This document shows positions 3,006 through 47,762 of a stretch of DNA of 64,000 bases, one piece after another (positions within the stretch are counted from its first letter, which is position 1; every line of letters begins with the position of its first letter). The notes under the pieces are model-generated. The model was not told the DNA's origin. It did no database searches and saw only the letters and a list, made by a program, of their open reading frames with translations. This DNA is from Bacteroidota bacterium (lineage in GTDB: Bacteria > Bacteroidota > Rhodothermia > Rhodothermales > Bin80), in the NCBI GenBank assembly GCA_026709065.1, contig JAPOTS010000040.1, forward strand, positions 1 through 64,000, in the 5' to 3' direction. Position numbers and translations under genes: made by a program.

Positions 3006-4184
3006 TCAATGATTGGGATCCGATCCAATGAGTGCGCCTAATTGAAAGAGGTTCATGATGAGGTTCATGGCATCTTCATTTTCAAGATAGGGGCTAAGAG
3101 ATTTATAATTGAGTTCATCACGCCCAGTTAATAGCTGAGCAAGGGGTTTAAGATCTTTTCCAATGATGATTTCTTCTCCCATCGCATAGATAGCAACTCC
3201 ATCATCTAATTCATGATATACAATTACAGAAGGAGATTGGCGAAGTAGGATGACATCTTTGATCAGTTCAGCATGGATTAGATCAGCAGATGGGGAGTGC
3301 CAGAATAGACTGGAATCAAGGTCTCTCTGTGGGTGTGTGATTCCTGTACATAGAACTTGAGCGAGATAACAGCGGTCTTCTACGATGAGACGCATTTCGT
3401 TTTGAAACCAATCAAGTACAGTCTTACTGACTTTTCCAGGGTCATCAATCTGGGATGTATCAATATCGGGATACAACTCAGGCTTCCATTGCAGTCTTTC
3501 GGCCATTTTATGAAAACTGTGACCGATAGTTGCCTCATCGGGGATCTTAAAACCAATACTTGCGGTGATACATTGATTTTTTGCAAATCCCCAATGTGGA
3601 ATTTTAGGTGGAAGATAGAGTATATCTCCAGACTTAACGATCAATTCCTGATCAGGGTCAAAGGACTCAAGGACCTGAATATTCAAATCTTGAATAAATG
3701 ACCGTTTCTCGGTAATCGGTTGGGATTCAATTTGCCATACTTTTTCTCCGCTGAGCTGAACGAGAAATACATCATAGCTATCCACATGAGGGCCAGCACT
3801 TCCGTCCATGACTGAAAAGCTTAACTGAACGTCGTCCAACCGCCAGTTGGGGATAAAGCGGAAATGCTCAAGCAATTCGTGCATTGAGTCAATCTCCCAC
3901 TCTGTATTCTGAACAAGTAGAATCCAATTTGTATCCTCAAGTCTTTCAATGAGATCGTTTTTGTTAAACGGGCCAGGAGTTTGGATCCATGGTTCTTCTT
4001 CATCTAACTCCTGAATGAATCGCGAAACAAAATCAAAGCGGGTCGCTAAGTTAAAGATTTCATTCCGACACACAGGGAAATCGGATGTCTTGAATACATT
4101 TTGAAGAAAGAGTGGACGTTTCTGCCAATAATCTTGCATAAACGTTTTCAAGGATACGTCAGCAGAAAAAGGGAATTGGGTCAT
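3006..4184 (-). CDS. roxA: JmjC/cupin-type ribosomal oxygenase (RoxA/YcfD-like)
   Basis: A 2-oxoglutarate/Fe(II) oxygenase of 392 residues, a little longer than E. coli YcfD. Family members hydroxylate arginine 81 of ribosomal protein uL16. The N-terminal YWQKRPLFLQ, the central NWRLDDVQLSFSVMDGSAGPHVDSYDVFLVQ (positions about 3750-3860) and PPKIPHWG match the family. PHVDSYD supplies His and Asp of the iron triad and PHWG the distal His. The C-terminal third matches the dimerisation/winged-helix part. The start ATG overlaps the stop of the upstream 55-aa gene (ATGA), showing translational coupling. The uL16 substrate is inferred from family. Confidence 0.85.
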   Translation of the reverse strand: MTQFPFSADVSLKTFMQDYWQKRPLFLQNVFKTSDFPVCRNEIFNLATRFDFVSRFIQELDEEEPWIQTPGPFNKNDLIERLEDTNWILLVQNTEWEIDSMHELLEHFRFIPNWRLDDVQLSFSVMDGSAGPHVDSYDVFLVQLSGEKVWQIESQPITEKRSFIQDLNIQVLESFDPDQELIVKSGDILYLPPKIPHWGFAKNQCITASIGFKIPDEATIGHSFHKMAERLQWKPELYPDIDTSQIDDPGKVSKTVLDWFQNEMRLIVEDRCYLAQVLCTGITHPQRDLDSSLFWHSPSADLIHAELIKDVILLRQSPSVIVYHELDDGVAIYAMGEEIIIGKDLKPLAQLLTGRDELNYKSLSPYLENEDAMNLIMNLFQLGALIGSDPNH

Positions 4185-4348
4185 AAAATCAGCTTGATCA
4201 GTTCAAACAGAGGCCAGATTAAAAGCAATGCCATGACCCAAGCCATGAGCAAGCGACTTTTGGCTTGCCGGGGAAATTCATACCCACAATAGGGGCATAC
4301 GTCAATATTGCGCTCAACTTCCAATGCACATGACGGACATTCTTCCAT
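4181..4348 (-). CDS. Small zinc-ribbon membrane protein (55 aa)
   Basis: A short gene of 55 codons. The first 25 residues hold two CxxC pairs (CPSC and CPYCGYEF), the pattern of a zinc ribbon. The last 25 residues form one hydrophobic helix (LLMAWVMALLLIWPLF). The stop codon TGA overlaps the ATG of the roxA-like gene (bases ATGA at 4184-4181), so it reads as the first cistron of the operon. Function is unknown. Similar zinc-ribbon-plus-one-helix proteins are common and uncharacterised. The last gene of the operon, a channel, also carries a zinc ribbon. Confidence 0.7.
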   Translation of the reverse strand: MEECPSCALEVERNIDVCPYCGYEFPRQAKSRLLMAWVMALLLIWPLFELIKLIL

Positions 4349-4448
4349 TGGTGTAGGTTAATTCTTGAATTTAGGCGTATAAGTCCAAACTTGTAAGAAA
4401 CAAACTTACGTTCAACGTTTACACTATCAGTTAACAGTTTAGTTTATT

Positions 4449-5042
4449 GTGACTATTGATACTCCCATAGCGCTACCCGTTGTAGATGTTTCGCCATCGG
4501 TTGAAATATCAATTGCAACCCCCCAACACTTTCAATTTGCGCATGAAATTTGTCATCTCATTAAGACCGCCGCTGCACAGCGAGGGACTGGGATAGCAGA
4601 GCGCCATCCAGAATATATTCGTCAAAAAATGAGAGAGGGGAAAGCCGTGATTGCTCTTGGACCCAATGATGAAGTGGCAGGATTCTGCTACATTGAGACT
4701 TGGGATCACGGAAAATATGCCGTGAATTCTGGTTTAATCATCTCCCCAAATTTTCGTAGACAGGGCTTAGCCCGCCGCATCAAGCGCCGTGCGTTTGAAC
4801 TCTCCAAGCAACTTTACCCCAAAGCTAAGTTGTTTGGGATTACCACGAGCCTTGCAGTGATGAAGATTAATTCAGACCTTGGATATAAACCTGTAACATT
4901 CAGTGAATTGACCGATGATGAAGAATTCTGGCAAGGATGTCAGAGTTGTCCGAATTATGATGTTTTGCAACGAATGAATCGGCAGATGTGTCTCTGTACT
5001 GGGATGCTCTATGATCCCGAAAATCAATCCAACTCAGAATAA
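4449..5042 (+). CDS. GNAT acetyltransferase, N-acetylglutamate synthase-like
   Basis: A single GNAT domain of 197 residues. The acetyl-CoA loop is FRRQGLARRI (about residues 103-112), after a beta strand SGLIISPN. The C-terminal segment with LFGITTSLAVMKINSDLGYK, FWQGCQSCPNYD and CLCTGMLYDP matches a Bacteroidota subfamily that is usually found in arginine gene clusters and is thought to act as N-acetylglutamate synthase. No other arg gene is nearby, so the role is inferred from wording only. The start is a GTG; homology begins about 18 residues in. It is followed by priA after 7 bases and is probably cotranscribed. Confidence 0.7.
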   Translation: MTIDTPIALPVVDVSPSVEISIATPQHFQFAHEICHLIKTAAAQRGTGIAERHPEYIRQKMREGKAVIALGPNDEVAGFCYIETWDHGKYAVNSGLIISPNFRRQGLARRIKRRAFELSKQLYPKAKLFGITTSLAVMKINSDLGYKPVTFSELTDDEEFWQGCQSCPNYDVLQRMNRQMCLCTGMLYDPENQSNSE

Positions 5043-5049
5043 TTAAACC

Positions 5050-7518
5050 ATGTCGTGCGCTATTGGTGTTGCCTTGCCGATCCCTATCGATAAGGTCTAT
5101 GCCTATGAGCTGCCAGAAGAACTTGAGCACTCCGTTGGGGTCGGCTCTCTCGTACTAGTTCCTGTTCGGAACCGTAACTATACAGGTATTGTCACGGAGA
5201 TGAATATTCAAGTTCGTGAGGATATGGAACTCAGATCCGTGAGAGCCGCTGTGAGCGGTGAACCTCTACTGAGTTCTGAACTGCTTAGACTCACCCGTTG
5301 GATCTCGCGGTACTATGTGTGCGCTTGGGGGGAGGCATTAAATGCTGCATTGCCTTCTGGAATACAGTCCAAAGAACGCGTGGTCTATTACCTTGCCTCA
5401 GAATCATCCCACGACTGGAGAAATATCTCTCCCGAGTTACAGTTACATTTAATCAAGCATCGGAGCACAACTCCTGCACGACTGAAACGCTTTGGATTGC
5501 GAATTTCTGATCAGGAAATTGCTAAAGCCGAATCGCAGGGCGCGTTGCAGAGAACGGTTGAATTACAAGATCCTACTGTCGCCACCAAGACAGACAAATT
5601 TTTGTTAATTGCGCCAGCATTTCGGTCATCTGCTGCTCTGATAGATGTGAGTACACAAGTGCAGGGGAATAAGCAAAAAGAATTGATTCAGGAGCTGATT
5701 CGCCGCATCAAATCTGGGGAGGATGATCTTTCAATAACAGACCTGAAAAGATCATGTAATGTCAGTCTTTCAACCATCAGATCGTTAGAGAAGCGAGGAT
5801 TATTTTCAATAGTAGAAAAGGAATCGTTTCGGATTCCAGAATGGATGCGCTCCGAGAAACTTCCATCAAGTACTCCTCCAGAATTTCACCCATTTCAATC
5901 CAAAGCGGTTGATGCACTGTGTGAGGCAGTCAATGTTAAGGCATTCAAAACATTCGCACTTCATGGCGTAACAGGAAGTGGAAAAACCGAGGTGTATTTG
6001 GCTGCACTTGAGACGGCATTTTCTCTTGATCAGACCGCTATTGTACTTGTTCCAGAAATCTCACTCACGCCCCAGACCGTACGACGATTTCAGGAGAGGT
6101 TTGGTAATTCAGTTGCTGTTCTACATTCCCGCATGGCCAAGGGAGAGCGTCATGATGTCTGGCAATTGATTCGCGCTGGGAAGTATCGTGTAGTGATTGG
6201 GCCTCGGTCTGCAGTGCTTGCTCCGTTAAAGAATCTAGGATTAATCATCGTAGATGAAGAGCATGATGGATCCTATAAGCAGAGAGAAAAGGCTCCACGC
6301 TATCATGCCAGAGATGTGGCTGTCATGCGTGCAAAGATGAATCGGTGTGTGTGCGTCTTGGGATCTGCAACGCCGTCTTTGGAAACACTATCCAATGTGC
6401 AACAAAATAAATACACTCTGTTATCTATGCCAGAGCGTGTACCTGTCGAAGGCCGTACAGCTGCGCCCCTTCCAGCTATTCGGATCATTGATCTATGTTA
6501 TGAGCGTGAAGAACATGGACTTGAAGGTCCAATGTCCACTCCACTCCTTGAGGCCATTGAACAGAGGTTAGATCGCAAAGAACAAGTGATTCTGCTTCAG
6601 AACCGCCGTGGCTATGCTCCAATTCTTGAGTGTCAGAACTGTGGACATGTTCCTCAATGTATTGCATGCAGTGTCTCAATGACCTATCACCAGATTGATC
6701 GTAGTCAGCGGTGTCACTATTGTGGCTATCAATCTGCAGTTGTCATTAATTGCCCAAAATGTGGTGCTCCAGCATTTGCTCCAATGGGTAGTGGAACACA
6801 GCGAGTTGCAGAAGAGCTTGGTGAGTTATTCAAATCCGCGAACATTCTTCGTATGGATCATGATAGCACCCGAACCAAGGATGCACATCATGAGATACTG
6901 AGTGTCTTCGGGAGAGGCGATGCTGATATTTTGATTGGAACTCAGATGGTGGCCAAAGGGCTGGACTTTGAACGTGTGACTTTAGTTGGGGTGATCAATT
7001 GCGACCTAGGACTACGGCTGCCTGATTTTCGTAGTGAGGAAGGGACGTTTCAGTTACTGATGCAAGTGGCCGGTAGAGCCGGTCGGGCAAACCTTCCTGG
7101 AGAAGTATTGCTACAAACTAGACGGCCAGCACATCCACTTTTTGCATTCTTGAAGTCACATGACTTTGATGGATATGCACGGCTACTGATGACGCATCGC
7201 CAAAAATTGAACTATCCTCCTTTTGGCCGTATTGTTGGGATTCAAATTCGAGGAGCCCCCAAACCCACCGTTCTGGAGCTCGCCAATCAATGGAAGGCCT
7301 TATTACTAAATCAGTTACCATCTACTGTCAGTGTACTTGGCCCAGAGCAACCATATGTTGAGCGCGTTGAGCATCAATTTCGAAATTATCTGATCCTGAA
7401 AGCTCCGAAGTCATATACATCTCTGCAGGATGATATTCGCACTATTCAAAAAATTTCTCCATCAACGGGACGGGACCTTCATGTATCAATTAATGTTGAT
7501 GGGGTGGAGCAGGAGTGA
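5050..7518 (+). CDS. priA: Primosomal replication restart helicase PriA
   Basis: An 822-residue superfamily 2 helicase that reloads the replisome at stalled forks. The N-terminal fork-binding domain is followed by Walker A GVTGSGKT (306-313), the Walker B variant DEEHDGSYKQREKAPRYHARD, and helicase motifs GSATPSLET and GTQMVAKGLDF. A cysteine-rich zinc region lies between the helicase lobes (CQNCGHVPQC, CHYCGY, CPKCG), all eight cysteines being visible. The C-terminal QVAGRAGR and PPFGR motifs are also present. Length and domain order are those of a complete PriA. The SRP RNA follows 40 bases after the stop. Confidence 0.97.
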   Translation: MSCAIGVALPIPIDKVYAYELPEELEHSVGVGSLVLVPVRNRNYTGIVTEMNIQVREDMELRSVRAAVSGEPLLSSELLRLTRWISRYYVCAWGEALNAALPSGIQSKERVVYYLASESSHDWRNISPELQLHLIKHRSTTPARLKRFGLRISDQEIAKAESQGALQRTVELQDPTVATKTDKFLLIAPAFRSSAALIDVSTQVQGNKQKELIQELIRRIKSGEDDLSITDLKRSCNVSLSTIRSLEKRGLFSIVEKESFRIPEWMRSEKLPSSTPPEFHPFQSKAVDALCEAVNVKAFKTFALHGVTGSGKTEVYLAALETAFSLDQTAIVLVPEISLTPQTVRRFQERFGNSVAVLHSRMAKGERHDVWQLIRAGKYRVVIGPRSAVLAPLKNLGLIIVDEEHDGSYKQREKAPRYHARDVAVMRAKMNRCVCVLGSATPSLETLSNVQQNKYTLLSMPERVPVEGRTAAPLPAIRIIDLCYEREEHGLEGPMSTPLLEAIEQRLDRKEQVILLQNRRGYAPILECQNCGHVPQCIACSVSMTYHQIDRSQRCHYCGYQSAVVINCPKCGAPAFAPMGSGTQRVAEELGELFKSANILRMDHDSTRTKDAHHEILSVFGRGDADILIGTQMVAKGLDFERVTLVGVINCDLGLRLPDFRSEEGTFQLLMQVAGRAGRANLPGEVLLQTRRPAHPLFAFLKSHDFDGYARLLMTHRQKLNYPPFGRIVGIQIRGAPKPTVLELANQWKALLLNQLPSTVSVLGPEQPYVERVEHQFRNYLILKAPKSYTSLQDDIRTIQKISPSTGRDLHVSINVDGVEQE

Positions 7519-38373: not shown

Positions 38374-39954
38374 ATGTCACAAAAAAGTAAAGAATCTGGG
38401 CAGAGTCAAGTTTTAGACAATCGCTCAATGATGGCGGAGTATGAGGTTAAACTCTGGGAAATGGCCGATGCATTAAGAGGCACGATGGATGCATCAGAAT
38501 TTAAGCATGTAGTTCTTGGACTACTCTTTTTGAAGTATATCTCGGATGCATTTGAAGAAAGACGGCAAACTCTTGAGGGTGAACGTTCAGATGGTGCTGA
38601 TCCAGAGGATCCAGATGAATACCGAGCAAAGAGTATTTTTTGGGTTCCTCAGGAAGCACGTTGGGAACACCTCATGAAAAAGGCCCCTCAATCTAGCATC
38701 GGCAAAGAGGTTGATAATGCAATGAGAGCAATTGAAAGAGAGAATGATAGCCTAAAAGGAATACTTCCAAAAGACTATACCCGCCCTGCAATCAATACAG
38801 AGCGTCTTGGCAAACTCATTAATTTGATCAGTAATATTCAAGTGGGAGGTGCAGAGGCGCGTTCAAAAGATGTATTAGGCCGTGTTTACGAGTATTTTTT
38901 ATCTCGGTTTGCCAGTGCTGAGGGAAAAAGAGGGGGTGAGTTTTATACTCCGAGATGTATAGTGCAACTTTTGGTTGAAATGATAGAACCCTACAGAGGG
39001 CGTGTCTATGATCCCTGCTGTGGTTCTTCTGGAATGTTTGTTCAGTCCGTAGAATTTATCAGCTCCCATGCAAATAATAATGGAGATCAATCACGGGGAG
39101 ACATATCTATTTATGGTCAGGAGTCAAATTATACGACTTGGCGTTTGGCGAAAATGAATCTAGCAATACGAGGAATTGATGGTCAGATTGCACAGGGCGA
39201 TAGTTTTCACGAAGATAAACATCCAGATTTAAAGGCAGATTATATTCTAGCAAATCCTCCATTCAATGTTTCGGATTGGGGGGGAGAGAGATTAAAAGAA
39301 GATGGGCGCTGGAAATATGGTGTGCCACCTAAGGGTAATGCTAATTTTGCATGGGTGCAACATATCCTCCATCATTTATCCTCGAACGGAATTGCTGCAT
39401 TCGTATTGGCAAATGGATCAATGTCTTCTGGTCAGAAGGCTGAAGCTGAGATACGGAAAAATTTGATTGAAAATGGTTTAGTAGATTGTATGGTAGCTTT
39501 ACCGGGTCAACTTTTTTATTCAACTCAAATTCCAGCATGTTTATGGTTTCTGGCGCGTAAGAGCAAGCGAAAGGAAAAAATTTTATTCATAGATGCACGT
39601 AAAATGGGCCGAATGCTGAGTCGGACACTAAGGGAACTTATTGCCGAAGAAATCAGTCGTATAGCGAATACATACCACTCTTGGCAGAAAGGAGCAGATG
39701 GTAATGGGTATGAAGATGTTCCAGGGTATTGCAAGAGTGCTTCCATTGAGGAGGTTCAAAAGAACGAACATGTCCTAACTCCAGGTCGTTATGTAGGTGT
39801 AGAATCTCAGGAAGAGGATTCAGAGCCGTTTAGCGATAAGATGAAGCGACTAGTTGTACAACTTGGCCAACAGCAGTCTGAAAGTGCAAAGCTTGATCAG
39901 GCAATTAAAGCGAACTTAGAGATGCTGGGATTTTCGATAGGGGAGAAAGAATAG
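38374..39954 (+). CDS. hsdM: Type I restriction-modification methyltransferase subunit HsdM
   Basis: A 526-residue N6-adenine methyltransferase. The N-terminal helical HsdM_N domain ([20 protein letters not shown]) is followed by the catalytic domain. The SAM motif is [10 protein letters not shown] (213-222), with Ser in place of the second Gly of the usual DPxxGSGG, and the catalytic motif is NPPF (294-297). A C-terminal helical region assembles with Hsd[15 protein letters not shown] is also typical. It is first in the locus; 108 bases separate it from the HEPN gene. Confidence 0.95.
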
Positions 39955-40062: not shown

Positions 40063-40485
40063 ATGTCACTTGATTTAGAAAGTTTGAAGAAATCTTTCAA
40101 TGCTCTGAAAGAAGTTTTCGCTGTAAGCGAGGATACTGAGCGTATGAGTCAGCGCACCCACTTTGAAGTGATTGCTATTCGTGCAGGTGTATTGAAACAT
40201 TTTGAGATGACTTATGAGTTAAGTTGGAAGATGATTGCACGTTGGCTCAACAACAATGTGACGACAGGCATTGCCGATGGAATTTCAAGGAGAAATCTAT
40301 TCCGATTGGCTCTTGAGAACCGCTTGATTCAAGATTTTGATAGATGGGACAATTACCATGATGCTCGAAATGATGCCGTTCATAGATATAGTTTTGAAAG
40401 AGCCGAAATGATATATATGCTGATAGGTGAATTTATTTCTGATACTCAGGATTTGATTCGTGCCTTAGAGGCTCAAAATCATTGA
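40063..40485 (+). CDS. HEPN protein, HI0074/NTase-substrate-binding family
   Basis: A 140-residue four-helix HEPN-fold protein of the 'nucleotidyltransferase substrate binding' family (HI0074 type). The text HFEMTYELSWKMIARWL is diagnostic. The HEPN motif RNDAVHRY gives R102-x4-H107-x-Y109, which is the active-site signature of HEPN ribonuclease toxins together with the tyrosine that partner nucleotidyltransferases can modify. It is encoded 13 bases before a gene whose first 100 residues are exactly such a nucleotidyltransferase. I infer a toxin-antitoxin pair inside the restriction locus. The activity itself is not shown by sequence. Confidence 0.85.
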   Translation: MSLDLESLKKSFNALKEVFAVSEDTERMSQRTHFEVIAIRAGVLKHFEMTYELSWKMIARWLNNNVTTGIADGISRRNLFRLALENRLIQDFDRWDNYHDARNDAVHRYSFERAEMIYMLIGEFISDTQDLIRALEAQNH

Positions 40486-40498
40486 ACATTAATCTGAA

Positions 40499-42202
40499 AT
40501 GAGTTCTTTTTCTCCTGTGATTGATCTCAGTCCTGACCATTGGAAAATTGTGCGAGAGGCACTTCGTCTCCATGTTCCAGATTACCAAGTTGTTGCGTTT
40601 GGATCGCGGGCAACTTGGACTGCAAAGGACTACTCTGATTTGGATCTTGCTATTTTAAGTGAGGATCCACTACCGGTTTCAACGCTTGCTGCTTTGAGGG
40701 AAGATTTGGAAGAATCTATTCTCCCATTTAGAGTTGATGTTATTGATCTTGCCAGTGTTGAGGAAGGTTTTCGGCTTATTATTAAAGAGCAAGGAGTTAC
40801 GCTACAAAATCACAATCATATTCAAAATTCAACAAATAATGCATATACAGATCATGGGCATGATATTGGTTTGAAATTGATTAACGGAGACTCTAAGTCG
40901 GAGACATACAAAAATAGTTGGAAAACTTTTAAAATTGGTGATCTCGGCCGAATTGTGACTGGAAAAACTCCTTCAACCGCAGATGCTGGTAACTATGATG
41001 GTATCTTTCCATTCATTACAATTCCAGACCTCAAAAATCATGCTCTTATTCATGAAAGCCAAAGAACATTGAGTGATAAGGGTGCGTCCAAAGTTCACTC
41101 CAGCCGCCTTCCTACTGGTGCTGTTATGATGTCCTGTATTGCAACCATAGGCGAATGCGGCATAACAACTCGCCCGAGTTTCACAAATCAGCAGATAAAT
41201 AGTCTCGTTCCTATAAGTGGGATAGACTCACGCTTCTTGTACTATGTATTTACTCAACTAGGAGCTGAGTTGGATTCAAGAGGGGGGGGAGGTTCAATCT
41301 ATACAAATGTTTCAAAGGGGCGTTTTTCTGATATTGAGATTACTATTCCAGTTGATTTATCTGAGCAACGCGCTATTGCTTATATTCTTGGCTCATTAGA
41401 TGACAAAATTGAACTTAATCGTAGAATGAACAAGACACTAGAAGAGATGGCTCAGGCACTATTCAAATCTTGGTTTGTTGATTTTGAGCCTGTCCGTGCT
41501 AAAATGGAGGGGCGAGATACAGGATTACCAAAACATATTGATGATATGTTTCCAGATCGTTTGGTCAACTCTGTGCTAGGGGAAATTCCAGAGGGTTGGG
41601 AGGTGACAACTTTAGGGGAAATGTCATCAAAACCCCAGTACGGATACACAGCCTCTGCAACTCCAGAGCCAAAAGGTCCGAAATTTCTGAGAATCACGGA
41701 TATCAACAAGTCGTTTTGGATTAGTTGGAATCAAGTACCCCATTGTCAGATTAGCAGTGATGAATTTGTTAAGTACAGACTTCAAGAAGGAGATCTATTA
41801 ATTGCTAGAATGGCTGATCCAGGTCACTGCATTCTTGTGGAGGAAGATATTAATGGTGTGTTTGCATCTTATCTCATAAGATTTCGTCCAATAAAAAAGT
41901 TCCACCGTCATTTCCTCCAATATTGGTCGCGATCTGTATTATACTGGCAGCTTGTAAGAACCACATCAGTTGGTACAACACGTAAAAGCTTGAATGCAAG
42001 AGCTCTTAGTTCATTTAAACTAACGATCCCTCCAGATTGCATAGCAGAAATTTTTCAATCAATTGTTAGTTCATATAGAAGTCAAGTATTGAGTCATGCT
42101 AATCAGATTTCGTTGCTGTCACGAATTCGCGATACTCTTCTCCCTAAGCTGATTTCTGGGGAAATTCGCACAGTTATATCCCCACCCAATAAACACATTT
42201 AG
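40499..42202 (+). CDS. hsdS: Fusion of minimal nucleotidyltransferase (MNT) and HsdS specificity subunit
   Basis: A 567-residue two-part protein. Residues 1-105 are a minimal nucleotidyltransferase: FGSRATWTAKDYSDLDLAIL gives G35-S36-x10-D47-x-D49, with the third acidic residue in FRVDVIDL (D80). A polar linker (106-138) leads to a complete HsdS. Target-recognition domain 1 starts at SWKTFKIGDLGRIVTGKTPS, a central conserved helix includes LNRRMNKTLEEMAQALFKSW, domain 2 starts at LGEIPEGWEVTTLG, and the second helix ends LLPKLISGEI. No stop, frameshift or internal start lies at the junction. Normally the MNT gene is separate. All catalytic residues are retained, so the MNT part is probably active. 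Confidence 0.92.
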   Translation: MSSFSPVIDLSPDHWKIVREALRLHVPDYQVVAFGSRATWTAKDYSDLDLAILSEDPLPVSTLAALREDLEESILPFRVDVIDLASVEEGFRLIIKEQGVTLQNHNHIQNSTNNAYTDHGHDIGLKLINGDSKSETYKNSWKTFKIGDLGRIVTGKTPSTADAGNYDGIFPFITIPDLKNHALIHESQRTLSDKGASKVHSSRLPTGAVMMSCIATIGECGITTRPSFTNQQINSLVPISGIDSRFLYYVFTQLGAELDSRGGGGSIYTNVSKGRFSDIEITIPVDLSEQRAIAYILGSLDDKIELNRRMNKTLEEMAQALFKSWFVDFEPVRAKMEGRDTGLPKHIDDMFPDRLVNSVLGEIPEGWEVTTLGEMSSKPQYGYTASATPEPKGPKFLRITDINKSFWISWNQVPHCQISSDEFVKYRLQEGDLLIARMADPGHCILVEEDINGVFASYLIRFRPIKKFHRHFLQYWSRSVLYWQLVRTTSVGTTRKSLNARALSSFKLTIPPDCIAEIFQSIVSSYRSQVLSHANQISLLSRIRDTLLPKLISGEIRTVISPPNKHI

Positions 42203-42809: not shown

Positions 42810-43967
42810 ATGGCACGCATAGATCATTTTTCTGTAAGCGGTTTTAAGTCAATTCGTAACGTTGATAAATTTGAACTTGGTCCCGTGACCATTCTGATTG
42901 GTGATAACGGAACTGGAAAAAGTAATCTGCTAAGTTTTTTTAATATGTTCGCTGCTCTATCTCAGGAGCGCCTTCAAGAGTTTGTCCATGATGAGGGTGG
43001 ACCGGACGCATTACTTTTTGGTGGACGAAAACATACTTCAAGAATTCAAGCCGGGCTATCATTTAATAATAATAATTGCGAATACGAATTTTCACTTGAA
43101 TCAAAAGATAACTCATTAATTTTTTCCCACGAGAAGACTATACCCGGAATTGAAAGCGATGACGATGACGCAGATTTGAGCTATTTAGACTTTTTAATTG
43201 GTGGATATAGAACAGACAATGAAGCCTCAGTATGGCCAGGCGGCAATAAAGAGACATTTCTAGCAAAAACCCATGAAAGCCTATTTACTTCGTACGTATT
43301 ACCCCAGATGAAAAGCTGGCAAATTTTTCATTTTCAAAATATGTGTCATACGGCTCGAGTTCGCAATCACTCGGATATATGTGATAATCTCTGGCTTAAA
43401 CCAGATGCAAGTAATCTATCGCTCAATTTATTTTACCTTAAAGAAAAGTATCCGAATCATTATCGGAGAATCGTGCAAGTAACCAATGTTTTTGCCCCAT
43501 TCTTTGTAGATTTTGTTTTAAATGGGGAGAATAGTACAAGAGATAGCCTACAATTAGAGTGGTATCACGCATCAGGGGGGCAAGAATCGTTATATAGCCC
43601 TCAACAACTTTCAGATGGTTTATTACGATTCATATGCCTTTCAACTCTGTTAAATCAGCCACATTCCATGCAGCCTAGCTTAATCCTCATTGACGAACCT
43701 GAGCTGGGACTAAATCCATATGCACTTGCGCTCCTGTCCGAAATGATTCAAAGTGCTGCCAACTATAAACAGGTCATCATCTCAACCCAATCTCCAGAGC
43801 TTATTAATAATTTTGATCCACAAGATATTGTGGTTGTGAGCAGGCAGAACGATGAAACCGTTCTAGATAGGCTGGATTTAGATAGGCTGGATATTTGGTT
43901 TGAGAATCATTCACTCGGAGATTTATGGAAAATGAATGTTATCGGGAGTAGGCCTCTACCATGTTGA
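42810..43967 (+). CDS. AAA/ABC-type ATPase of a restriction-linked defence pair
   Basis: A 385-residue ATPase of the AAA_21/OLD-like group. It begins IDHFSVSGFKSIRNVDKFEL, with Walker A GDNGTGKS (31-38), an ABC-like signature region LSDGLLRF (267-274), Walker B LILIDEPELGL (291-301), and a D-loop/His region ISTQSPELINNF. It has no nuclease domain of its own. The next gene overlaps it by 7 bases and encodes a Toprim-like DUF4276 protein, so the two resemble a split OLD-type nuclease. Proteins of this sort (RloA/RloB, AbiL-like pairs) are known inside or near type I restriction loci. Confidence 0.88.
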   Translation: MARIDHFSVSGFKSIRNVDKFELGPVTILIGDNGTGKSNLLSFFNMFAALSQERLQEFVHDEGGPDALLFGGRKHTSRIQAGLSFNNNNCEYEFSLESKDNSLIFSHEKTIPGIESDDDDADLSYLDFLIGGYRTDNEASVWPGGNKETFLAKTHESLFTSYVLPQMKSWQIFHFQNMCHTARVRNHSDICDNLWLKPDASNLSLNLFYLKEKYPNHYRRIVQVTNVFAPFFVDFVLNGENSTRDSLQLEWYHASGGQESLYSPQQLSDGLLRFICLSTLLNQPHSMQPSLILIDEPELGLNPYALALLSEMIQSAANYKQVIISTQSPELINNFDPQDIVVVSRQNDETVLDRLDLDRLDIWFENHSLGDLWKMNVIGSRPLPC

Positions 43968-44641
43968 CAATTATTGTCCTGTGTGAAGGAAAAACTGAAG
44001 TTGAATTTGTGAATAAAATTATATATAATGAACTTTTCCCAAAAGGGATTTATGTACAACCACGCCTAATTCCTACCTCCACTAAATCAAGTGGAGGTGC
44101 ACTAAATAAACAGCGTATTTTCTATTATCTTCGGGATGCTCTCAGGGAGAGAAGAAATACTTATGTAACAACATTTTTTGATCTATATTGCTTGCCACGA
44201 GATTTCCCAGGACTTCAAAGCGTTGATACAATAAGGGATCCTGTTGATCGCGTGGTAAAAATTGAGGAAGCGTTTCACCAAGCGGTAATCAGTGAGATCG
44301 GTTGTAGACCGGATCGCTTTTTACCTTACATTCAACCATATGAATTTGAAGCCTTATTATTTTCTGATCCAAAATGTTTTTCCAGAATTGAACCTAGATG
44401 GAAGAAATTTGATGATTCACTCGTTTCAATACGTCACAAATTTTCAAGCCCTGAGCATATCAATAATGGAATTCATTCGCATCCATCTGCTCGACTTCGT
44501 AAACTTTTAGATCCTGAATACAAAAAGGTAGAACATGGTTCTAAAATATCAGCGAGGATTGGTATTATTCGTATTCGTTCAGAGTGCAAGCATTTTGATC
44601 TCTGGCTTAATAATATTGAAAACCTTTCCGAATTAGAATAA
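43961..44641 (+). CDS. DUF4276 Toprim-like protein, partner of the upstream ATPase
   Basis: A 226-residue protein. The N-terminal [10 protein letters not shown] has the Glu-Gly motif of Toprim-like folds, followed by the DUF4276 hallmark [15 protein letters not shown] (70-84), then [13 protein letters not shown] and [16 protein letters not shown]. In this family the acidic residues of the first and second motifs are the likely metal ligands. It overlaps the ATPase gene by 7 bases and precedes hsdR by 13. Nuclease activity is inferred from fold similarity only. Confidence 0.82.
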
Positions 44642-44654
44642 CAGAAATTTAATC

Positions 44655-47600
44655 ATGACATTAATATCAGAAGATCTAGTAGAAGAAGAAGCTCTTGGAT
44701 GGTTTTATGAGCTTGATTATGGTAAAATTAACGCTACACCTAGTGAGTACATACTACGTCCGTCATCTAAAGATGTGTATTTCAAAACAATTTTGACTGG
44801 AGACCTGAAACGAATCAATCCCACGCTTCCTTCAGAAGCAATTCAAAATGCTCAGTTCAAAATACTTAATCTAAGAGGCCATTCCATTGTCTCTAAAAAT
44901 CGCCAGTTTCATCAGATGGCCATTGAGGGCGTGTCAGTTGAATATCAGGGGGATGATGGCAAACCTCGTTACGATCGTGTTAAGATTTTTGATTTTGATA
45001 ATCTTGATAATAATTCATGGTCTGTCGCCAATCAATTTCTTGTATCGGAGGGTAAGCACAAACGGAGACCCGATATTGTGATATTTGTAAATGGACTTCC
45101 GCTTGCCGTGATTGAGTTAAAATCACCCTCTGATAGAAGCGCCACACTTAAGACTGCATGGAATCAATTACAAACCTATAAAAATCAGATTCCATCTCTT
45201 TTTGTCTATAATCTAGCGTTAGTGATTTCAGATGGAACGCAAGCGACTATCGGTTCGCTTACAGCTGGCATTGAATGGTTCAAATTTTGGCGGACAATTG
45301 ATGGAGAGACCTTCGCTTCAAACACCGATCAAAAATTAGAAGTTCTCATCAAGGGCGTTTTTGAGAAAGGTCGCTTACTTGATTTGATGCAGAATTTTAC
45401 TGTTTTTGAAGACGATGGTATAGAAGTATCAAAAAAATTGGCCGGATACCATCAGTTTCATGCAGTCAGAGCCGCAATCTCTGAAACACTTCGCGCCACT
45501 CAAAAAATACAATCTGACACTCATACTGTCACGGGTCGTCCCGTTAATTATGGTGGTGCGCTCGGTGATAAACGGGTTGGAGTTGTATGGCACACTCAGG
45601 GATCAGGGAAAAGCCTCACAATGGTGTTTTACACCGGAATGATCATCCGACATCCCGACATGGAGAATCCTACAGTGGTGGTTTTGACTGATAGGAATGA
45701 TCTTGATGATCAACTCTTTACAACATTTTCCAGATGCAAAGGGCTTTTACGTCAGACTCCAGTCCAAGCGGAATCTCGCATCGACCTAAGAGAAAAATTA
45801 TCTGTGAAAGCGGGAGGAATCGTATTTACAACGATTCAGAAATTCTTTCCAGATCATCAGGGTCATGATCATGCGCTTCTCTCTGAGCGACATAATATTG
45901 TCGTAATTGCAGATGAGGCCCACCGAAGTCAATATGACTTTATTGATGGATATGCCAGACACATGCGAGATGCGCTACCCAATGCATCATTTATTGGATT
46001 CACTGGAACACCAATTGAACGGGCTGATACGAATACACGCTTGGTATTCGGTGATCATATCAGTATATACGATATTCAGAGATCAGTTGATGACAAAGCA
46101 ACAGTACCTATTTATTACGATTGTCGACTTGCCGAGCTAAGTTTAGATGAAAGCGAACAACCCAAACTTGACCCCAAATTTGAAGAAATTACCGAGAATC
46201 AGGAATCTGGGGAGCGAGAGAAGACAAAATCAAAATGGTCGAAACTTGAGGCAGTTGCTGGTTCCCCCCAACGGACCAAGATGATTGCCGAAGATATTTC
46301 TTCTCACTTTCAACAACGTCTGGAAGTGCTACATGGCAAGGCGATGATTGTCTGTATGAGTAGAGAAATCTGTATTGATTTATATCAAGAATTGGTTCGT
46401 CTTAATCCCCAATGGCATAGCGAAGATGATCATAGTGGGGCGATTAAGGTGGTCATGACAGGGTCAGCATCTGATCCTAATGACTGGCAACCACATATTC
46501 GGAGTAAGTCCAGACGAGAGATGCTTGCAAAACGATTTCGTGATCCTGATGATCCTTTCAATATAGTCTTAGTCCGGGATATGTGGTTGACTGGTTTTGA
46601 TGCCCCAAGTCTTCACACTATGTATATAGATAAGCCAATGCGGGGCCATGGGTTGATGCAGTCGATTGCGAGAGTGAATCGGGTGTTCAAAGACAAGCCT
46701 GGTGGATTGATTGTTGATTACCTTGGACTGGCTAATCACCTTCAATTAGCATTAGCTAGCTACACGGAAAATGGTGGTCAAGGAAAGTCTACTTTAAATA
46801 AGAATGAGGCAGTTGAGGCAATGCTAATTAAATATGAAATTTGCGTTACCATTTTCCATGGATTTGACCGGTCTGTAAATTCTTCAAAAGAATTACTAGA
46901 TATACTACCAGCAGCAATGCAACACATTTTAGCACAGAAAAATGGGAAAGAACGATTCATCAAGGCAGTACGAGGACTCAAGAAAGCTTTCACATTAGCC
47001 GTTCCGCATGAAGAGGCTGACCGTATTAAAGATGATGTTGCTTTTTTTCAGACTGTGGCGACTGCACTGTCAAAACGTGCGCCAGATGAGCTCCACGCTG
47101 ATGAGAAAATAAATCGTGCTATGCGTCAGATCGTCTCGCAAGTTGTCGTATCAGATGGAGTAATTGATATCTTTTCTTCTGCAGGATTGAAGAAGCCCGA
47201 AATATCAATTCTTTCTGAAGATTTTCTCAAGCAGGTGCATGCTCTTCCTCAACCCGACCTCGCAGTAGAAGTCTTACGAAAACTATTGAAAGGAGAGATA
47301 TTAAACCGCAGAAGAAAGAATATTATCCAAGCTAAATTATTTTCGGAAATGTTGCAAGATACGGTCAATCGCTATCAAAACGATGCATTTGACACACTAT
47401 TTATTATTGAGCAATTGATTAATCTTGCAAATGAAATGCGGGACGCTAATGCCCGCGGAGAAGCACTTAATCTTTCTGATGATGAGCTTGCATTTTACGA
47501 TGCACTCGGAGATAACGATAGTGCAATTAAAGTCTTGGGAAATGAAAAGCTCAGCGAAATCGCACGCAAATTGACTCAAACGATTCGCGAAAAAGTCAAA

Positions 47601-47762
47601 ATTGACTGGATATATCGCGAGGATGTTCAAGCCGAAATACGAAGTTTAATTAGACGAGATCTTCGAAAATTTGGTTATCCTCCAGATAAACGAGAAAAAG
47701 CAGTAAAGACAGTCATTAAACAGGCGGAAGTATTATCTGCTGACTGGGCAAATGCGCAATAG
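44655..47762 (+). CDS. hsdR: Type I restriction endonuclease subunit HsdR
   Basis: A 1035-residue motor-nuclease. The N-terminal PD-(D/E)xK nuclease reads [20 protein letters not shown] (D140, E154, K156). The helicase lobe has Walker A TQGSGKS (314-320), DEAH (420-423), and IGFTGTPIE (motif III). The second lobe has [22 protein letters not shown]-terminal helical region (about 800-1035) binds the methylase core. All motifs are intact, so the restriction enzyme should be active provided hsdM and the hsdS fusion work. It closes the island. Confidence 0.96.

Follow-up and report, generated by a model that had tools for sequence, protein, structure and literature searches.

How might a cell come to depend on its own restriction system staying intact? 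The question is raised by a locus in the 64,000-nucleotide stretch of DNA analysed here (the window), in which a HEPN gene lies within a type I restriction-modification operon and is followed by a minimal nucleotidyltransferase (MNT) that shares one reading frame with the specificity subunit, HsdS. A coupling of immunity and suicide was proposed in 2012 (Makarova et al.) on the grounds that immune systems lack antitoxins, so that their own subunits must hold the toxins, with PrrC named as the well-studied case. The MNT::HsdS architecture, in which a recognisable antitoxin enzyme sits covalently within an immune complex, repeatedly and in several phyla, is a direct case for testing this coupling, with small parts of understood structure; among them is a fused relative (locus L157) of a pair with known chemistry and structures. 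HEPN/MNT pairs and the presence of HEPN genes in restriction loci are already known: at least 16 HEPN clades associate with such loci, and the HEPN fusions reported there involve nucleases, helicases and other ATPases, not methylases (PMC3710099). The joining of MNT to HsdS or HsdM is apparently undescribed, as no description of either was found in the literature searched (open-licence papers; absence is not proof).

Gene content and domain architecture of the locus

The gene order in the window is hsdM, HEPN, MNT::HsdS, an AAA_21/DUF4276 pair and hsdR (Table 1). All subunit genes of a type I restriction-modification operon are present on one strand, with hsdM, an hsdS with two TRDs and hsdR each giving full-length Pfam and NCBIfam matches. 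The AAA_21/DUF4276 pair (HEC-01A/B in PADLOC; 42810-44641 in the window) also occurs directly 5' of hsdR in L108 (Truepera), L168 and L171, and therefore looks like a recurrent second module of such operons.

Table 1 Features of the type I restriction-modification operon, with positions in the window.
Feature	Position	Strand	Evidence
hsdM, N6-adenine methyltransferase subunit (526 aa)	38374..39954	+	PF02384 364.7 bits, PF12161 103 bits; NPPF motif
HEPN toxin candidate, HI0074/NTase_sub_bind family (140 aa)	40063..40485	+	PF08780, TIGR01987, fold
MNT domain, minimal nucleotidyltransferase, antitoxin candidate (fusion residues 1-105)	40499..40813	+	PF18765/PF01909; 1no5 E 8e-20
Linker (fusion residues 107-138), predicted disordered	40817..40912	+	pLDDT <50; codon scan
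HsdS part (fusion residues 140-567): two TRDs and two long helical conserved regions	40916..42202	+	PF01420 124.4 bits, two stretches; fold 1yf2, 2y7c, 7vs4
AAA_21 ATPase (HEC-01A-like)	42810..43967	+	PF13304 90.1 bits; PADLOC HEC-01A 384.7 bits
DUF4276 protein (HEC-01B-like), partner of the AAA_21 gene	43961..44641	+	PF14103 150.7 bits; PADLOC HEC-01B 229.1 bits
hsdR, restriction and translocase subunit (1035 aa)	44655..47762	+	TIGR00348 586.8 bits; PF04313, PF18766, PF11867

The HEPN gene starts 108 bases after the hsdM stop and encodes a single domain, without a PrrC-type ABC-ATPase in the same protein. Its RX4HXY motif is intact (R102-x4-H107-x-Y109), and it matches PF08780 at 89.6 bits (cut-off 31.8) and TIGR01987 HI0074 at 67.8 (cut-off 55.8). 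The best PDB relative is 1jog (HI0074), and the predicted structure (pLDDT 92) has a TM score of 0.90 to 1jog and of about 0.8 to the Legionella HEPN 8xdj.

Thirteen bases after the HEPN gene, a single uninterrupted frame of 567 aa (40499-42202) encodes a protein with an intact MNT motif (G35-S36-x10-D47-x-D49) and D80, which matches PF18765 and PF01909 at approximately residues 17-105 and, from residue 140 on, gives two matches to Methylase_S (124.4 bits). Its best PDB relatives are 1no5 (HI0073, residues 2-105) and the S subunits 1yf2, 2y7c and 7bst. The AlphaFold2 model, based on an alignment of 34 sequences, consists of two ordered parts and a linker (mean pLDDT 86; residues 107-138 <50), and a Foldseek search with this model retrieved HI0073 1no5 (TM 0.93 by target) together with a number of S subunits, among them 1yf2, 2y7c and 7vs4. 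The coordinates, motifs, 13-base gap and uninterrupted frame reported in a preliminary description of this DNA proved exact, and its division of the frame into a nucleotidyltransferase (residues 1-105), a linker and a complete HsdS is borne out by Pfam, the PDB relatives and the AlphaFold2/Foldseek analysis. Between the two domains, a codon scan of the linker revealed only two TTG codons (125 and 127) and no in-frame ATG or GTG, which makes a separate HsdS product from an internal start unlikely.

Class I of type VII toxin–antitoxin systems (HepT/MntA) comprises PF08780/PF01909 pairs with RX4HXY and GSX10DXD (PMC7641770), and the window pair has this composition, a PF08780 HEPN with RX4HXY adjoining an NTP_transf_2 MNT with GSX10DXD. 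Its earlier identification as a HEPN/MNT pair, a class shown to be type VII toxin–antitoxin (PMC7641770), stands, with both motifs intact. In such pairs, the HEPN is neutralised through AMP that the MNT attaches to the RX4HXY tyrosine (PMC7641770, PMC11586414). The closest characterised HEPN is that of the type VII pair of Legionella pneumophila (PDB 8xdj, 8xeh, 8yuf, 8xeo), an RNase whose Tyr105 is AMPylated by its MNT, with one MNT bound to a HEPN tetramer (PMC11586414). This pair, homologous to that of the window by profile (8.7e-17) and fold, likewise combines a PF08780-type HEPN carrying RX4HXY with an MNT that has GSX10DXD and no C-terminal alpha-4 helix, but the Legionella MNT is a small free protein, whereas in the window a 567-aa HsdS contains the MNT as one of its domains, a departure from the two small free proteins of the type VII class. 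A further difference concerns the RNase site of the Legionella HEPN, formed by Q44/E47: RNase activity and toxicity both require Gln44, while R98A/H103A hardly matter (PMC11586414). By alignment columns, the window HEPN has a lysine (K45) at the Gln44 position and keeps a glutamate (E48) at the Glu47 position, and because of this lysine the window toxin may be weak or altered. The same substitution is found in the same-genus fusion locus L165, whose RX4HXY is intact; most HEPN relatives have both Q and E, and L052 has neither.

HI0073 and HI0074 of Haemophilus (1no5, 1jog) are the closest solved structures for both domains and are two free proteins. HepT of Shewanella is a HEPN of the DUF86 type. 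The Shewanella pair (SO_3166/SO_3165; PMC7641770) resembles that of the window in combining an RX4HXY toxin with a GSX10DXD adenylyltransferase antitoxin, but differs in that its MNT lies upstream of HEPN and is unlinked to any S subunit. In genetic setting, the likeness is to PrrC, a HEPN RNase that EcoprrI keeps latent until the T4 Stp peptide releases it (PMC3710099, PMC3874165), whose gene lies in a type I operon and whose latent state is proposed to be held by the restriction complex (PMC3710099, PMC3874165, PMC3506569); the window HEPN gene has a PrrC-like placement, between hsdM and hsdS. Unlike the window locus, with its separate, putatively toxin-modifying enzyme fused to HsdS, PrrC is an ABC-ATPase/HEPN anticodon nuclease and has no antitoxin.

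Distribution of the fusion and related arrangements

A scan with an MNT alignment over ~85,000 species genomes, from which the best 80 loci were taken, provided together with earlier loci a first set of 43 MNT::HsdS fusions. The phyla labelled in their records are Gemmatimonadota, Rhodothermota, Pseudomonadota, Chloroflexota, Deinococcota and Poribacteria. Such labels may be wrong for bins: in these domains, L053 (Gemmatimonadota) does not differ from L054 (Gammaproteobacteria). When 245 genomes of the class to which the window belongs were surveyed, nine further fusions emerged, among them L163 and L168 in single-contig genomes and L166 in a four-contig genome. The resulting 52 loci, about 50 of them distinct, span at least 6 phyla, although these counts are not frequencies because the genome scan was seeded with window-like MNTs; the less biased survey is that of the window's own class and phylum. 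Linker sequence and length differ from fusion to fusion. The recurrence of the single frame in about 50 loci upholds the earlier claim that an antitoxin-like MNT is part of the specificity subunit. A check suggested in the preliminary description, whether proteins with NTP_transf_2 and Methylase_S have a HEPN gene immediately upstream, gave a positive result, with a HEPN gene directly 5' of the fusion in 47 of the 52 loci. Most of the five exceptions are mundane: two loci lie at contig edges (L056, L167), one has a 0.9-kb gap (L104), one is a decayed multi-copy array (L171) and one, L068, keeps the fusion with apparently just a short HEPN 3' remnant (its last codons) before it. Two candidate fusions were rejected, L031 because its open frame is a read-through of another gene's frame and L029 because its product is not an S subunit, and L064 was dropped from the stand-alone MNTs because its contig ends inside the MNT.

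Fusion to HsdS is one solution among several, and separate MNT genes fill the same operon slot. On Acetobacter plasmids, hsdM, HEPN, MNT, hsdS and hsdR are five adjacent separate genes in the same order, mostly overlapping (tblastn of plasmids). On the Magnetococcales contig L058, HEPN-MNT::HsdM, in which the MNT is on the N-terminus of HsdM and has its own HEPN upstream (3575-5692), is followed by HEPN-MNT::HsdS with a truncated S. Many close MNT relatives occur without any restriction system. No relative was found among the viral contigs scanned with the MNT alignment, and the best matches among annotated phages cover the HsdS part of the query only; on plasmids, no MNT::HsdM was present among the best matches listed, none of which begins before query position 121.

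In existing annotation, these proteins are classed by their HsdS part. The fusion on the Zymomonas mobilis plasmid pZMOB01 is annotated plainly as 'restriction endonuclease subunit S', and positions 1-103 of the PADLOC model PDLC03138 (Specificity_I, length 485) match the MNT domain; therefore, MNT::HsdS fusions belong to the source set of this model, which is labelled merely as a specificity subunit. None of the PADLOC models matched the three HEPNs tested. Defence-annotation tools thus count MNT::HsdS as plain specificity subunits and may overlook the adjacent toxin gene.

Conservation, phylogeny and exchange of parts

The catalytic residues of the MNT are strongly conserved, GSx10DxD being kept in 43 of 43 first-set fusions and G35, S36, D47, D49 and D80 being invariant in the 34 aligned fusions. 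RX4HXY is kept in 39 of the 40 neighbouring HEPNs of the first set (38 by pattern and L025, whose domain match ended short, by eye), the exception being L062 with Asp for Tyr. Values of dN/dS are well below 1 for both domains (approximately 0.05-0.2 in close pairs with usable dS; overall HEPN median 0.15, saturated pairs included), and both the HEPN and the fusion are under purifying selection. In family f54, comprising the fused L168, L169 and L170 and the unfused L172, the HEPN has lost RX4HXY (RNHTENNS, RNHAENDA and similar) while three of the four loci keep the fusion, and on this basis the f54 HEPN may not be an active toxin.

Phylogenetic analysis of 85 MNT sequences showed that fused, adjacent-but-separate and stand-alone MNTs interleave. 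The fused or unfused state changes 20 times on the best tree of this MNT-only analysis, with at least 9 changes forced by well-supported branches, although the tree gives no direction to these changes (fusion vs split), and a single fused clade is rejected (p about 1e-70). Joined HEPN and MNT trees were set aside for counting changes, because the histories of the two genes disagree. Fusions occur in three MNT subfamilies: the HI0073-like subfamily, which includes the window, the 'VLRGP' group (L168-L170) and the Legionella group. The last of these includes L157, with a HEPN and an MNT identical to the Legionella PDB proteins at 82/135 and 56/99 positions, respectively, which forms a bridge to the characterised pair in that it belongs to the Legionella subfamily but has its MNT fused to HsdS.

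Exchange of parts affects both flanks. HEPN identity is <50% in 7 of the 29 pairs of loci whose MNTs are at least 80% identical, as where fused MNTs are 86% identical and their HEPNs 32%. In L047/L050, L052/L051 and L061/L099, fused MNTs of 80-86% identity are preceded by HEPNs of just 28-41%, apparently through replacement of the toxin gene ahead of a conserved antitoxin-HsdS gene.

On the Acetobacter plasmids (L039, L041-L045), hsdM, HEPN and MNT residues 1-80 share 86-97% identity, while MNT residues 81 to the end and hsdS are mostly <45% identical (64% for the hsdS of L042/L043). In the unfused MNT, the C-terminal ~20 residues vary with the hsdS allele, the rest of the operon being near identical. 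The sole pair sharing the MNT tail (71%) is the pair with related hsdS alleles (69%). Judging from this agreement between tail identity and allele relatedness, the MNT tail tends to move with hsdS, even where the two are separate genes.

Possible coupling of the toxin to the methylase complex

We propose that a type VII (HEPN/MNT) toxin–antitoxin pair has been wired into a type I restriction-modification operon, with the presumed AMP-transferring MNT flexibly tethered to the specificity subunit as its N-terminal domain. A type I methylase contains one S subunit, and each assembled M2S methylase would carry one MNT. This would be a workable ratio to a HEPN tetramer, since one MNT is bound per tetramer in Legionella (PMC11586414). 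The tethered MNT would bind HEPN and AMPylate Tyr109, leaving HEPN latent, until the cell loses the S subunit or M2S, or one of them is degraded or blocked, whereupon free or unmodified HEPN would cleave RNA and growth would stop. Plasmid or gene loss, failed recombination or a phage anti-restriction protein could act as triggers. Such an arrangement would back restriction up in the way that PrrC does with EcoprrI, and would hinder loss of the locus as well. The AMPylation and RNase activities ascribed to the window pair are those of its characterised relatives, and we infer that the release of HEPN would be controlled by the state of the complex, in which case an intact defence complex may be a condition for cell survival. 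We lean, if narrowly, towards this reading, that is, a type VII pair with its antitoxin on M2S and a latent HEPN freed when the complex is lost or blocked. A broader view is more tentative: M2S could be a guarded hub in a widespread class of type I systems, its S subunit carrying an enzymatic antitoxin joined to it repeatedly, so that block or removal of M2S by any phage protein would stop HEPN AMPylation and lead to growth arrest.

Recurrent fusion, conserved catalytic residues and the presence of MNT::HsdM in one locus support a coupling of the pair to the M2S complex, and the interpretation in the preliminary description, which ties survival to an assembled HsdMS complex, is borne out in part. 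Also in favour of the proposed mechanism are the position of L157 in the Legionella subfamily, HEPN-MNT::HsdM in L058, the fusion with a HEPN remnant in L068, and the split operons, which keep the order hsdM-HEPN-MNT-hsdS-hsdR with abutting or overlapping genes. It is disfavoured by K45 at the position of the essential Gln44, by the loss of RX4HXY in L168-L170 and L172, by the near-identical fused MNTs with very different HEPNs, which would require the MNT to tolerate several toxins, and by the many close MNT relatives that act without a restriction system. The long variable linker also counts against it in disfavouring tight conformational sensing; a flexible, variable tether fits co-localisation and shared fate better.

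Because the tether is flexible and variable, addiction alone stays a serious rival, although we consider it unlikely. The pair would then be a usual toxin–antitoxin pair, with the fusion making the antitoxin inseparable from hsdS and the locus or plasmid hard to lose, and with the MNT sensing no complex state. Stand-alone MNT relatives, long, variable and disordered linkers, split versions on Acetobacter plasmids and the retention of the fusion in L068 despite the loss of HEPN are consistent with such a role, but the MNT has been joined to S repeatedly, in three subfamilies, and also to M in L058, which exceeds what addiction would need, as translational coupling already links the genes, and the MNT 3' end travels with hsdS alleles. 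The absence of RX4HXY from the HEPNs of L168-L170 and L172, the lysine that replaces Gln44 in the window and L165, and the report of Anantharaman et al. that HEPNs in one polypeptide with MNT are usually inactive (PMC3710099) would instead agree with a domesticated regulator. In that case, HEPN would no longer be a toxin and would serve to bind the substrate, while restriction would be controlled by the HsdS-borne MNT through nucleotidylation of HsdM, HsdR or some other protein. This appears improbable given that RX4HXY is retained in 39 of 40 first-set HEPNs, most of which keep Q/E, and that HEPN stays a separate gene, with purifying selection on both.

The physical tether to the DNA-reading subunit, and the fusion of MNT to HsdM as well in L058, could also be explained if the tethered MNT recruited latent HEPN to complexes on unmodified phage DNA, where nearby phage transcripts would be cut. 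We regard this as decidedly improbable, since the MNT is an inhibitor in characterised pairs, so that tethering should restrain rather than deploy HEPN, and split operons have no covalent tether. The chance that a frame error in sequencing or assembly joined two adjacent genes in the window is negligible: separate MNT and hsdS genes do lie side by side in Acetobacter, but there are about 50 fusions with varied linkers, several in single-contig genomes (L163, L168) or the complete plasmid pZMOB01. For the family, the same fused frame in about 50 loci excludes chance or an assembly slip.

Additional HEPN/MNT pairs were observed in several of these genomes. The window's genome contains a second, stand-alone pair of a different subfamily (G000:C82; L158 2301-3096), which is related to the MNT part of MNT::HsdM in L058. 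In L165 (6242-7398) and L171, second pairs of another subfamily adjoin the MNT::HsdS gene, and the fused MNT of L171 looks decayed, with SVLDL in place of SDLDL.
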